Below are positions 8,313 through 57,146 of a DNA stretch of 64,000 bases, one piece after another. Position 1 is the first letter of the stretch. Each line of letters starts with the position of its first letter. The notes below the pieces were generated by a model, which saw only the letters and a list, made by a program, of their open reading frames with translations, did not search any database and was not told the origin of the DNA. Source of the DNA: Phytoactinopolyspora alkaliphila (lineage in GTDB: Bacteria > Actinomycetota > Actinomycetes > Jiangellales > Jiangellaceae); assembly GCF_010550695.1 (NCBI RefSeq), contig NZ_JAAGOB010000001.1:186001-250000 (forward strand), read 5' to 3'. The position numbers and the translations under genes were made by a program.

Positions 8313-9638
8313 GTGATACGCCGCATCGACCTGCGTGGTCGCCTCGCCGACGGTGAGGAGCTCGATTACCGCGCTCTCGTCCCACGTGCATCGGCGGACG
8401 TCGAGTCCGCTCTGGAGGCTGTCCGGCCGATCTGTGCCGACGTCCGCCATCGTGGTGTCGAGGCGCTGCGCGAGCTCACCGCCCGATTCGACGGCGTGCA
8501 GATCAAGGATATCCGGGTGCCCGAATCCGCGCTGCGGGACGCGCTGTCCGAGCTCGACCCCGCTGTGCGCGCGGCCTTGGAGGAGTCGATCGCCCGCGCC
8601 CGGACCGTCCACGCCGACCAGCGGCGCTCGGACGTCACCACAGTGGTCGCGCCCGGCGGAACGGTCACGGAACGCTGGGTTCCCGTGCAGCGCGTCGGCC
8701 TGTACGTGCCGGGCGGTCTCGCGGTCTATCCCAGCAGCGTCGTCATGAACGTCGTTCCGGCCCAGGTGGCCGGCGTCGAGAACATCGCGGTGGCGAGCCC
8801 GCCCCAGAAGGGCTTCGGCGGCGCCCCGCACCCCACCATCCTGGCCGCGTGTGCGCTGCTCGGCATCACCGAGGTCTACGCGGTCGGAGGGGCACAGGCG
8901 ATCGCCATGTTCGCGTACGGTGCCCGCGACGACGCCGGAGCGCAGGTCTGCTCCCCGGTCGACCTGGTGACCGGGCCGGGCAACGTGTACGTCGCCGCGG
9001 CCAAGCGCCTGCTCAAGGGCCTGATCGGCATCGATGCCGAGGCAGGTCCCACCGAGATCGCGGTCCTCGCCGATGAGTCCGCCAACCCGGCGCACGTGGC
9101 GGCGGATCTGATCAGCCAGGCCGAGCATGACCCGCTCGCGGCGAGTGTCCTTGTCACCGACAGCACAGAACTGGCGGACGCGGTCGACGCTGAGCTGAAG
9201 CTGCAGGTCGCCGCAACCAAGCACGCTGATCGGGTGCTGAGCGCCCTCACCGGCGAGCAGTCCGGAACGGTTCTCGTGGACGACCTGGCACAAGGCGTCG
9301 CCGTCGCCGACGCCTACGCGGCCGAGCACCTGGAGATCCAGACCAGAGATGCCCCTGCCGTCGCGGCACGGATCCGCAACGCCGGCGCCGTCTTCGTCGG
9401 TCCATGGTCGCCGGTGAGTCTCGGCGACTACGCCGCCGGTTCCAACCACGTGCTGCCCACCGGGGGCTGCGCCCGGCACTCGTCGGGCCTGTCGGTGCAG
9501 ACCTTCCTGCGCGGCATCCACGTGGTGGAATACGGCCAGGAGGCCCTGCGCGCGGTCGCGAGCCACGTGGAGACGCTGGCCGACGCGGAAGACCTCCCGG
9601 CACACGGAGCGGCCGTCCGAGCGAGGTTCCCCTCATGA
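8313..9638 (+). CDS. hisD: Histidinol dehydrogenase
   Basis: Catalyses the last two steps of histidine synthesis, oxidising L-histidinol to histidine with NAD and zinc. The 441 residues match the usual length. Key segments are [19 protein letters not shown], the [16 protein letters not shown] and [20 protein letters not shown] stretches, QAEHDPLA (metal and substrate ligands), and AAEHLEIQ, which holds the catalytic Glu-His pair. The GTG start has no ribosome site and appears leaderless. hisC starts inside its stop codon (ATGA), so hisD opens the his operon. Confidence 0.97.
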
Positions 9639-53810: not shown

Positions 53811-53912
53811 GGGCCGGGAGAGATGTCTCCTGCCGACAGGCCTACGGCCGTGAAGAAAGAGCATTTCACGGCCTCCGGCTTTAGCGTCGGCTGGAGACAT
53901 CTCTCCCGGCCC
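53811..53912. terminator. Large nested hairpin downstream of rpsA
   Basis: Perfect 20-nt arms GGGCCGGGAGAGATGTCTCC (53811-53830) and complement (53893-53912) enclose two further stems: GCCGAC/GTCGGC (53832, 53886) and GGCCGTGAA/TTCACGGCC (53846-53854, 53865-53873). It starts 18 nt after the rpsA stop and is likely its terminator, though it is far longer than needed. Confidence 0.75.
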
Positions 53913-54060: not shown

Positions 54061-54735
54061 GTGAATCGAGTACTACGTCGGTACGCCGCCCTTGCTGTCG
54101 TCCCGATGGCGCTGTCTCTCGCCGCCTGCACCGATCAGCAGGAGCCAGAGGTACCCGAGGTTCCCGGCGCCACCGAGACGCCTGAAGACGCCGTCGACAC
54201 CGCCGAGCCCACCGAACCCGCGGGCGATCCCACGGACGCCCTCGATGTGCCGTTCGAGTGTGGCGAGATGCTTACCGCGGGGCGGGTCGTGCAGATCCTG
54301 CAGACGCCTCTCGACGGCGAGTCTCAGCGGGTCTACAACGACGACTACCTGGCGGACTCTGGCCGCACAGGTAGATTGACCTGTCGGTATGGTGTGCCGA
54401 CCGGGGGTTCCTCTCCGTCTCCGTCTCCGTCGCCGTCGGCGGACGGGCCGGCCGTCGAGGTCGCCGTCAGCTCGTACGTGGACGAGGAGACCGCGGCCGG
54501 TCGGATCGACACCACGCTTGGGTCCACCTCGCGCGACGTCGAACCGCAGACCATCGGCGGCACGGAAGGCTATCTGCTGACCGATGACGACGAGGTGACC
54601 TACATTGTCGCCAGGGGAGTGCGCACATATGTGATCACCTTGCGACGCGGCCTGGTGCCCGACGCGGCGGAGGTGGTGGTCATCCTCGAGCTGGCGGCCG
54701 AGATCCTCGGCGATGAGGCACCCGAAGAGTCCTGA
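54061..54735 (+). CDS. Putative lipoprotein of unknown function
   Basis: A 224-residue lipoprotein with signal and lipobox LSLAAC (Cys23), a Pro/Glu/Thr linker, and a globular domain with two cysteines (FECGEMLT and LTCRYG) broken by a Ser-Pro repeat (five units, PSPSPSPS type, about residues 119-127). The pattern of a Cys, a helix and later LTCRY resembles DUF3558-like actinobacterial lipoproteins, but I cannot confirm it. GTG 54061 appears leaderless. Its last 56 nt overlap tail-to-tail with the surface-protein gene on the minus strand. Confidence 0.65.
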   Translation: MNRVLRRYAALAVVPMALSLAACTDQQEPEVPEVPGATETPEDAVDTAEPTEPAGDPTDALDVPFECGEMLTAGRVVQILQTPLDGESQRVYNDDYLADSGRTGRLTCRYGVPTGGSSPSPSPSPSADGPAVEVAVSSYVDEETAAGRIDTTLGSTSRDVEPQTIGGTEGYLLTDDDEVTYIVARGVRTYVITLRRGLVPDAAEVVVILELAAEILGDEAPEES

Positions 54736-55270
54736 GCGTCAGCCCGGCCGCCACGGCCAGGACTGCGAGGATCAGGAGAAGGCCCAGATCGGCCCCGGTA
54801 TCCGGGATGTCCGGGCCGTCCGTGCCCATGGTGCTGGTGAAGTTCAGGCGGATCTGGCCGTCCTGAGCTTGCAGATCGTTGCCCGTGTCAGCCGGCAGTG
54901 TGGCGCGGGCGAGGTATTCGCGGGTTTCACCGCTGCCGATGTCCGGTAGCGGGATCGCTTCGTCGCCGCCCACAGCGGACAGCGCGCGGACCGTACTCGT
55001 ATCCCCCGTGCATGAGTACGGTCCGCGCTGTTCCGGGGAGGAGATCCAGTCGCCGGGGCAGCTCTCGATCTCCAACTGGAGCCCGTCGATGCCCGTCAGG
55101 GGTGTGTCGTCGCCGATGACGGTGAGCGCCAGTGAGGCCCGTTCAGCGGCGGTGTTCGTGACGATGGCCAGCCACTCGACGGTCGAGCCGGGGGCGAGGC
55201 CGTCGAACTCGGGAGCCGACGGCTCCGATCTCACGTCCAGCCATTCGGGGGCGGTCATCTGATCAACCAC
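54680..55270 (-). CDS. Surface protein with sortase-like sorting signal, no signal peptide
   Basis: A 196-residue protein whose C-terminus is a classic wall-sorting layout: IPDTG (variant of LPxTG), a hydrophobic stretch LLLILAVLAVAAGLTL and a basic tail. The main part is beta-rich (VEWLAIVTNTAAERASLALTVIG, GQIRLNFTSTMG) with two cysteines that may form a disulfide. It starts at GTG 55270 within the end of the peptidase gene (8-nt overlap), and no signal peptide is visible, which is odd for a sortase substrate. Either secretion depends on a fused product made by frameshifting, or the N-terminus was lost. Confidence 0.6.
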   Translation of the reverse strand: MVDQMTAPEWLDVRSEPSAPEFDGLAPGSTVEWLAIVTNTAAERASLALTVIGDDTPLTGIDGLQLEIESCPGDWISSPEQRGPYSCTGDTSTVRALSAVGGDEAIPLPDIGSGETREYLARATLPADTGNDLQAQDGQIRLNFTSTMGTDGPDIPDTGADLGLLLILAVLAVAAGLTLRTLRVPHRRGSRPPARG

Positions 55271-56318
55271 ACCCCGAGGCGAGTCCGGTCAGCACGTTGA
55301 TCCGAACGAATGCCGGGATGGAAGGCTGCTGGGATCGCCAGCTCTGCCCGTACAGGCTGATCACGTAGACACGAAACGTTCCGAGAGCTAGAAGGTTCGG
55401 CTGAATTTGATACTGACGGGCCGAGGCGCCCATGGTGATCTGGGTGACCAGCGCGTTCGTGGTGTTGGTCCGTATTTCGACGCGATAGCCCGTCGGTGCC
55501 GGTCCCTCATCTGGCGCGTTCCACCGGATCTGCGCATGCTGGGTGAGACCCGGGTCGTTGCAGCGCAGGTTGGTGACTGGTCGCACTGTGGTCGTCGTGA
55601 CCTGAGACGACGTCTCGCCCAGGTCGGCGAAGGCGGCCATGGTTCCCGTGACGCGGGGGGCCACAGTGGACACCGCGAGAGCGGCGGCGAGCACACACAT
55701 GGCGGTTGTGCCCACGGCGCCGGTGGTCCGGCGACCGGGCGCCGTGTCGCCCCGCGTGTGCTCGTCTGCGGTGTCGCCCGTGCTACCAGCTGGCGGGTCC
55801 GCGGAGCCGTTCCCGCCTGAGCGCTGCGGACGTCGCCGGAACGACGTGACAAGCAGAGCGCCGACGACGACGCCCGCGGTGAATACCACGGGAGTCGACT
55901 GCGCCTCCCGGACCACCCGCCCCCAACCCGGCTGGGACCAGAAGACCCGGTCGGCCTCGTCCACCACGTAGGGGACGGCGTCTCGATCCGCGTTCGCATC
56001 GCCCTGCAGGACGAACCGGACGGCGGAACCACCGACCGGCTCTGCTGAGACGACGCGATGGGTCACCCTCGCGCCGTCGGCCCGGAAGACGCTGATCACA
56101 TCCCCGACGACGATCTCCTCCGCCGGCGTGCTCCGCGCCAGGGCGAGCGAGCCGACCGGGATCTCCGGCGCCATCGAACCGGACCGGAACACCAGGGGCC
56201 GGACCTCGAGCAGGACGGCCGCGAGCGCGGCGACGGCGCAGAGCACGCCGATCGCCGCCGCCACGGTCAACAGCGTCTCGTGTGCGGCCCGGCGCCAGAC
56301 GCGGATGCGGGTGGACAC
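55263..56318 (-). CDS. SipW-type signal peptidase I fused to a SipW-signal/Fn3-like module
   Basis: A 351-residue protein in two halves. Residues 1-165 form an S26B (SipW/ER-type) signal peptidase: membrane helix at 12-40, Ser48 in FRSGSMAPEIPVGS, His87 in VTHRVVS in place of the bacterial Lys, Asp107 in QGDANADRD, and a second helix at 143-160. After a Gly/Asp linker, residues 198-240 look like a SipW-dependent signal peptide (basic start, hydrophobic core, TGTMAAFADLGETSSQ), followed by an Fn3-like domain (about 246-340, WNAPDEGPAPTGYRVEIRT). GTG 56318, 9 nt after the TasA-like gene. Confidence 0.8.
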   Translation of the reverse strand: MSTRIRVWRRAAHETLLTVAAAIGVLCAVAALAAVLLEVRPLVFRSGSMAPEIPVGSLALARSTPAEEIVVGDVISVFRADGARVTHRVVSAEPVGGSAVRFVLQGDANADRDAVPYVVDEADRVFWSQPGWGRVVREAQSTPVVFTAGVVVGALLVTSFRRRPQRSGGNGSADPPAGSTGDTADEHTRGDTAPGRRTTGAVGTTAMCVLAAALAVSTVAPRVTGTMAAFADLGETSSQVTTTTVRPVTNLRCNDPGLTQHAQIRWNAPDEGPAPTGYRVEIRTNTTNALVTQITMGASARQYQIQPNLLALGTFRVYVISLYGQSWRSQQPSIPAFVRINVLTGLASGCG

Positions 56319-56327
56319 ACGCCCGCG

Positions 56328-56945
56328 CTACGAGGACTGGGTGGCCAGGAAACCGAAGACGGCCGTGGCGCCCGCTCCCTGCGGTGCCGCCTCGCCCACG
56401 TCCACCCGGAAGCAGAGGACTTCGGAGTCGCCCTCGGCGAGGAATCGGCCGGGTTCGGCGATTTCACCACCGGGCAGGGCGGCCGGTCCGAAGACGGGAT
56501 CACCCGGCGCGTCGAAGGCCGCCTCGTCGCAGGCAGCCGCCGAGCCGACGCCGACAATGGTGAGCTCCAGAGCTGCCGCGAGAGCGTCCGCCTCCGCTTG
56601 GTCGCCGTCACCGAGCGGTCCGACCTCGGTGTCCATCGCGTAGTCGAAGTCGAGACTACCGTTGTTGTTGACCTCGAGTGGGGCGACGACGGTGTCACCC
56701 GGGCCGGCGTTGTCCAGGGACAGCGACGTGAAGACGTAGGGCTCGGGATTGCCCTCGTTGTCTCCGTCGAATGCGATGTCGACGGAGCCTGTGGAGAATT
56801 CGGCGACCACGTCGCCGGAGTCGGTGAACTGGGCGAGTGTGACGGCGGTACCGATGCCGAGGACGGCACCGAGAGCGAGGAATGAGCGTACTCGGCCTCC
56901 ACCAGGGCCGGCGTGGTTCTTGTGAGCGTGCTCCGTTACGGACAC
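56328..56945 (-). CDS. TasA/CalY-like protein with SipW-dependent signal peptide
   Basis: A 205-residue secreted protein. Residues 18-45 match a SipW-type signal: RVRSFLALGAVLGIGTAVTL then AQFTDSGDV, followed by EFSTGSVDIAFDGD and a beta-rich domain with DNAGPGDTVVAPLEVNNNGSLDFDYAM, as in TasA and camelysin, which form fibres or surface layers. Two cysteines (AACDEA, VLCFRV) may pair. GTG 56945 is preferred for AGAAGGG 8 nt upstream; ATG 56969 lacks a site. The processing peptidase is encoded immediately downstream. Fibre formation is inferred from the family. Confidence 0.75.
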   Translation of the reverse strand: MSVTEHAHKNHAGPGGGRVRSFLALGAVLGIGTAVTLAQFTDSGDVVAEFSTGSVDIAFDGDNEGNPEPYVFTSLSLDNAGPGDTVVAPLEVNNNGSLDFDYAMDTEVGPLGDGDQAEADALAAALELTIVGVGSAAACDEAAFDAPGDPVFGPAALPGGEIAEPGRFLAEGDSEVLCFRVDVGEAAPQGAGATAVFGFLATQSS

Positions 56946-56985
56946 TGTGCCCACCCTTCTTGTTGACATGCGGACGCGAACAATG

Positions 56986-57046
56986 CCCCCAATGCCCCCC
57001 TCGCGAGCAACGCCCCCCGGCGAGTGCCCCCTGAACCGCGCCCCCC
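56986..57046 (-). promoter_or_regulatory. G-rich leader of the TasA-like gene
   Basis: On the minus strand five runs of five or six G (complements of C-runs at 56986, 56995, 57013, 57027 and 57041) are spaced 4-12 nt, a pattern able to form a G-quadruplex. It lies 41-101 nt upstream of the TasA-like start, in its presumed leader or promoter. Confidence 0.4.
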
Positions 57047-57146
57047 GGCGCGGCTTCTCGTGCCCGTGATTACCAACAATGGACGTCACTCTCTGTGATG
57101 TCAAGCGAGCCAGTTCGTCACGATTAGTGACCTCCGTGCAATCACC

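Follow-up and report, generated by a model that had tools for sequence, protein, structure and literature searches.

The window analysed here is a 64,000-nucleotide stretch of Phytoactinopolyspora alkaliphila DNA, and the locus of interest consists of three genes on its minus strand, in the order gene 1 (56945-56328), gene 2 (56318-55263) and gene 3 (55270-54680). By ORF reading, the cluster is flanked by a dephospho-CoA-kinase-like gene on one side and a lipoprotein-like gene on the other. Gene 1 starts with GTG and encodes a 205-residue TasA/camelysin-like, predicted exported protein with a SipW-type signal. Gene 2 encodes 351 residues that combine an S26B signal peptidase with a third transmembrane helix, a predicted SipW-type cleavage box and an Fn3 domain, and gene 3 encodes 196 residues with a TasA-fold domain, an IPDTG motif, a C-terminal transmembrane segment and an Arg-rich tail. 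A preliminary description of this DNA had reported three neighbouring genes at 54680-56945, and they are all in place; it missed, however, that gene 3 begins with a GTG codon that overlaps the gene 2 stop by 8 nt (55263-55270). The same overlap occurs in the sister species discussed below, and translational coupling of the two genes is possible.

An Rfam scan of the three-gene region returned no RNA family above threshold, and no match to a sigma-70-like promoter was found in the region. The leader of gene 1 (56975-57055) contains several GGGGGC or GGGGGGC blocks in both species (positions 9390-9475, minus strand, in sister locus L011), which are perhaps a G-quadruplex-like or attenuation element. 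Elsewhere in the window, a long near-perfect inverted repeat (AGATGTCTCC...GGAGACATCT) lies just 3' of an rpsA-like gene, at 53811-53911; against Rfam it gave only a sub-threshold, chance-like match.

Gene 1 (56328-56945) belongs by profile search to the Pfam family PF12389 (Peptidase_M73/camelysin), with 23.8 bits against a cut-off of 22.5, and just reaches the cut-off of 19 for the NCBIfam model of SipW-dependent signals, TIGR04088 (19.0 bits). A family profile built from 16 relatives matches the TasA structures 8aur (9.5e-8) and 5of1 (1.9e-7) in the PDB. The predicted cut, TLA^QFTD, falls after Ala38 as P1, a residue that is invariant in the 16 relatives. These matches identify gene 1 as a predicted TasA/camelysin relative, the sole TasA-like protein detected in a search of the genome, and they bear out both the SipW-type signal that had been read in its N-terminus and its description as a TasA-like gene adjoining a SipW-type peptidase.

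The catalytic half of gene 2 (55824-56318) comprises a first transmembrane helix, the S26B domain with Ser48, His87 and Asp107, and a second helix at residues 142-160. Its score against the S26B signal peptidase model TIGR02228 is marginal, at 52.1 bits for a cut-off of 51.85, while related fusion proteins score up to 74. The peptidase assignment and the three catalytic residues had been proposed from the sequence, and in an alignment of 14 gene 2 homologues all three are invariant, as is Asp113. The closest solved structures to this half are human SEC11A and SEC11C. Since the protein scores 34.6 bits against the B. subtilis SipW equivalog model NF046067, for which 190 are needed, it is not the Bacillus equivalog, yet it may act like SipW. 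A genome-wide search found no second S26B peptidase; searches of genome contigs with the raw gene 2 protein match mainly the peptidase domain.

The preliminary description had suggested structure prediction for the 351-residue protein, and the AlphaFold model (mean pLDDT 75.5) shows, in order, helix 1, a beta domain, the helix at 142-160, a disordered linker, a helix at 201-219, a low-confidence, disordered stretch at 226-243 and a beta-sandwich. The third transmembrane helix was assigned to residues 200-219 (55662-55721); by the positive-inside rule it is predicted to run from the cytoplasm to the outside. Basic residues precede it and a box with Ala at P1 and an aromatic residue at P2' follows it: the predicted cleavage box TMA^AFAD spans residues 226-232 (55623-55643), with Ala228 as P1 and Phe230 as P2', lies within TGTMAAFADLGETSS (residues 223-237) and has a pLDDT below 50 in the model. 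The SipW site of TasA is TWA-AFND, in which Phe at P2' is a characteristic feature, and P2' aromatics are handled badly by E. coli LepB (PMC10269814). The second SipW-like signal that had been claimed for this protein holds as regards the box behind the third helix, but the C-terminal half has no match to the curated TIGR04088 model.

The remainder of the protein, residues 243-351 (55266-55592), carries two conserved cysteines, at 253 and 350, of which C253 is nearly invariant among the gene 2 homologues. Against Pfam fn3 it scores 21.5 bits, below the cut-off of 25, and the assignment comes from the predicted structure, with a Foldseek E-value of 1.8e-4 and a VIA Z-score of about 12 over residues 243-346. 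In the model the beta-sandwich is a complete Fn3 domain, in agreement with the Fn3-like domain that had been recognized in the second half of the protein.

The distribution of this fusion across actinobacteria, which the preliminary description had also proposed to search, was examined in 394 genomes of the class and 396 of the phylum, followed by reading of the fetched loci. In Actinomycetota, 37 S26B proteins carry a third helix and a C-terminal ectodomain, and the ectodomains are Fn3-like, Ig-like, LamG-like or RCC1 (the LamG and Ig-like calls being made partly by eye). In 30 of the 37, from 11 families, a box of the form A.[FWY][STANV][DGSATNE] lies directly behind the third helix; three of these 30 helices were missed by the automatic call and assigned by hand. 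In 5000 shuffles of the segments the box occurred 5.3 +/- 2.0 times, with a maximum of 13, and the automatic count alone gives 27 of 42 against 5.6 +/- 2.1 in shuffles. Behind other helices in the same loci the box is found in 56 of 679 cases (8%; Fisher p 8e-24, the rows not being phylogenetically independent), and behind the second helices of the same proteins in 3 of 42. The rate in the fusions is near that behind the true TasA-like signals (26/29). Homologues with a plain helix and no box at residues 198-240 had been named as an observation that would count against the fused signal; most homologues are not of this kind, but the sister species has lost both helix and box.

Across the 37 aligned C-terminal halves a single column is invariant, that of the predicted P1, Ala228, and the alignments conserve the catalytic residues and Ala228 and not the linkers. 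A chance origin of the box was rejected on the motif statistics together with this conservation, and an assembly artefact or frameshifted neighbours were ruled out because the 37 fusions come from many genomes. Lysine and arginine average 3.1 in the 12 residues before the third helix versus 0.7 in the 25 residues after it, a pattern that, with the two conserved cysteines, fits a C-terminal half placed outside the cell. TIGR04088 matches 4 of the 37 fused C-terminal halves versus 18 of 22 TasA-like proteins and is too strict as a detector of fused signals; what these signals have in common is the cleavage box and not the whole TasA-like start. In a phylogenetic tree the window protein falls in a clade made up almost wholly of fusions, apart from the standalone SipW-type enzymes, and box-bearing fusions appear in several parts of the S26B tree, in which few deep forks are resolved. 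Our survey shows that the fusion of enzyme and substrate-like module is real and recurrent, in at least eleven bacterial families.

Other arrangements were seen during the reading of these loci. In four of them (L064, L065, L068 and L072), two to four S26B peptidases, standalone and fused, stand in tandem beside several TasA-like genes. Four more (L149, L156, L160 and L161) encode S26B fusions that lack the SipW-type box; behind their third helix stands a Y-x-x-x-G-x-F-x-Y-like segment (such as YTHVGKFSYGAP), and they may represent another fused system. In L027, L029 and L033 a TasA-like domain is fused straight onto the third helix of the peptidase (a weak similarity, clearest for two of them) and bears a LARTG/AATG-type, LPXTG-like tail; in these three the aromatic box is absent and an ordinary AxA site closes the third helix.

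The locus was further compared with that of a congener (genome G020, locus L011), where the same gene order lies between the same neighbours. In this sister species the peptidase (62% identical), gene 3 and the last part of the Fn3 domain are retained, but a deletion has taken away the third helix together with the box and the opening strands of the Fn3 fold. Unless the deletion reflects an assembly error, this species can do without release of the Fn3 piece, and the loss weakens any claim that release is essential. Three other congeners gave no match whatever to the gene 2 protein. Between the window species and the sister species dN/dS is about 0.23 for gene 1, 0.22 for gene 2 and 0.44 for gene 3, which suggests purifying selection on each of them.

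Gene 3 (54680-55270) had been described as ending in IPDTG and a membrane stretch. The model (pLDDT 85) agrees with this, with IPDTG at residues 155-159 (54794-54808; the motif is conserved in the sister species), a helix at 162-181 and the Arg-rich tail, but the TasA fold and the missing signal peptide had been overlooked. A TasA-family profile built without gene 3 scores it at E 3.7e-6, and the top VIA match of its model is the TasA fibre 8aur (Z 9.0 over 128 residues, model residues 8-151 against TasA 43-235), a score tied with that of an unrelated hexosaminidase jellyroll. Because other jellyrolls tie, the fold alone would not decide kinship with TasA; the sequence profile does, and gene 3 is a TasA-fold protein. 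The donor strand of TasA comprises residues 28-38 (PMC9674648), and its counterpart is absent from gene 3.

No signal peptide that would account for export of gene 3 is found in its reading frame in either the window species or the sister species. Motif, transmembrane segment and basic tail are those of a sortase substrate and the genome encodes three sortases, but the missing signal peptide keeps gene 3 from classification as one. Equivalents of gene 3 in other loci have LARTG, LPQTG or LPGTG tails and normal signal peptides, and one of them passes the cut-off of the LAVTG sortase-substrate model. Gene 3 is apparently extracellular, and its dN/dS of about 0.44 suggests that it is in use. Gene 3 could acquire a signal through a programmed frameshift from gene 2, but this is unlikely: in the window both frames are open for only a few codons, and no slippery sequence common to the two species was seen. 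A further argument against such a frameshift is that in relatives, too, a Cys close to the C-terminus marks the end of the Fn3-like domain.

With the architecture of the locus, its conservation and its predicted folds established, we give about an even chance to the following reading: a compact TasA-type fibre system that unites SipW and a TapA-like initiator on one polypeptide, cut by itself or by a neighbouring copy, with gene 3 as an anchor. The S26B half would remain in the membrane and remove the SipW-type signal of gene 1, the putative fibre subunit. Export of the Fn3 domain would fall to the third helix, acting as an internal SipW-type signal-anchor, and the same peptidase, in the same chain or a neighbouring one, would cut between Ala228 and Ala229. 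The N-terminal residues of the freed piece, AFADLGETSS, would form an extended strand like the donor strands of TasA and TapA and would precede a complete beta-sandwich, and the piece might serve, like TapA, to nucleate or cap the fibre. Gene 3, with its TasA fold, no donor strand and a membrane/IPDTG tail, could hold the fibre on the envelope, a tentative placement given its missing signal peptide. We infer the cleavage at Ala228, its cis or trans nature, the TapA-like role and the anchor role from the features described above.

The comparison with TapA underlies much of this reading. TapA has a complete Ig fold and the N-terminus AFHDI, and it donates that strand to TasA (AFNDI), which starts the fibres; the stop of tapA overlaps the start of sipW (PMC10151520). 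Since this layout of AFHDI plus Ig fold matches AFAD plus Fn3, a sipW and a tapA-like initiator on one chain would be the simplest reading of gene 2. We counted in its favour the complete Fn3 domain with a disordered strand before it in the model, and also the detection of one S26B peptidase and one TasA-like protein in the genome. A cut by a second SipW-type peptidase encoded elsewhere was rejected, as none was found in the genome. A matrix- or fibre-type surface system had been suspected from the outset, and the TasA fold found for genes 1 and 3 supports that suspicion.

Whether the Fn3 part is cut free is the point on which the main rival turns. It may instead be exported and never cut, with the third helix as a permanent anchor and AFAD as a tethered donor strand or stalk by which the first fibre subunit is kept at the peptidase. 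Conservation of the box need not mean cleavage, because the same residues act as the donor strand in TasA (PMC9674648), and AFxD conservation could stem from that interface; an anchor would also allow the wide variation of the ectodomains behind the helix. We consider the uncut initiator unlikely, though a serious contender, since no position of the C-terminal half is more conserved than the predicted P1, Ala228, a pattern that fits a peptidase site better than a strand, and the box with its aromatic P2' agrees with the signals that genuine TasA-like proteins carry in these loci.

Cleavage by a different enzyme, be it the general P-type signal peptidase I or some other protease, would make the fusion a by-product of gene order, arising where sipW and its substrates are neighbours. 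The three loci with an ordinary AxA site, a TasA-like domain and an LPXTG-like tail would suit such an origin; the poor cutting of P2' aromatics by E. coli LepB (PMC10269814) and the presence of box-bearing fusions at several places in the S26B tree, where they group separately from the standalone enzymes, make it improbable. Slightly less probable still is that the C-terminal half is a decaying leftover without function in this lineage and that the peptidase and genes 1 and 3 alone matter, as the sister species, which kept the rest of the locus after losing helix, box and part of the Fn3 domain, and the three congeners without a match might suggest. In the window species the helix, the box, the Cys pair and a complete Fn3 fold have all been preserved and match relatives in other families, which argues against decay.

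The survey raises a broader possibility, which we advance tentatively and with somewhat less confidence than the reading of the locus itself. Self-processing signal peptidases may be widespread: a precursor would carry its own SipW-type signal and a fibre-initiating domain and cut its own chain, yielding one initiator per peptidase molecule, and Actinomycetota would have evolved the arrangement on more than one occasion, the cargos being Fn3, LamG-like, RCC1 and Ig-like domains. Signal peptidases are usually regarded as general enzymes, separate from their cargo. An enzyme joined on one chain to a cargo with a box of its own type would, if the reading is true, be a polyprotein-like start of a surface fibre, and it would extend the TasA/SipW fibre principle to many actinobacteria. 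The literature searched, to which subscription papers mostly did not belong, yielded no description of such a one-chain fusion, with an internal box of the enzyme's own type, spread over many families.

Among known systems that come close, the tapA-sipW-tasA operon of B. subtilis likewise places a SipW-type S26B peptidase beside a TasA-like fibre subunit and has AFxD-type mature N-termini, with a beta-sandwich accessory domain behind one of them (PMC9674648, PMC10151520). The window differs in that its accessory beta-sandwich sits on the peptidase chain, is an Fn3 domain likened to TapA by layout from the published description alone, and is accompanied by an extra TasA-fold protein with a membrane tail and no signal peptide. 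The sipW-calY (camelysin) operon of B. cereus also has a peptidase and two TasA-fold proteins and no tapA gene (PMC10151520), but no peptidase fusion is described there, and it is the window's gene 3 that lacks a signal peptide. SipW-dependent exported proteins are covered by TIGR04088, which gene 1 matches, and by TIGR04089, which matches 20 of 22 TasA-like proteins in the related loci; these models describe substrates, and a peptidase-substrate fusion lies outside their description. The archaeal bundling pili and threads (AbpX, the Pyrobaculum bundling pili and the Sulfolobus 0406 filament) share a TasA-like filament fold, with weak profile and fold matches, but they are archaeal, the similarity is weak, and we know of no peptidase fusion among them. 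The standalone actinobacterial SipW-type peptidases (TIGR02228) have the same catalytic domain and occur in the same loci in other genera, but they form a separate group without the C-terminal module, and none was found in the window genome. The S26B peptidase and the SipW-type substrate are both of known kinds, and what appears new, against the literature searched, is their fusion on one chain.
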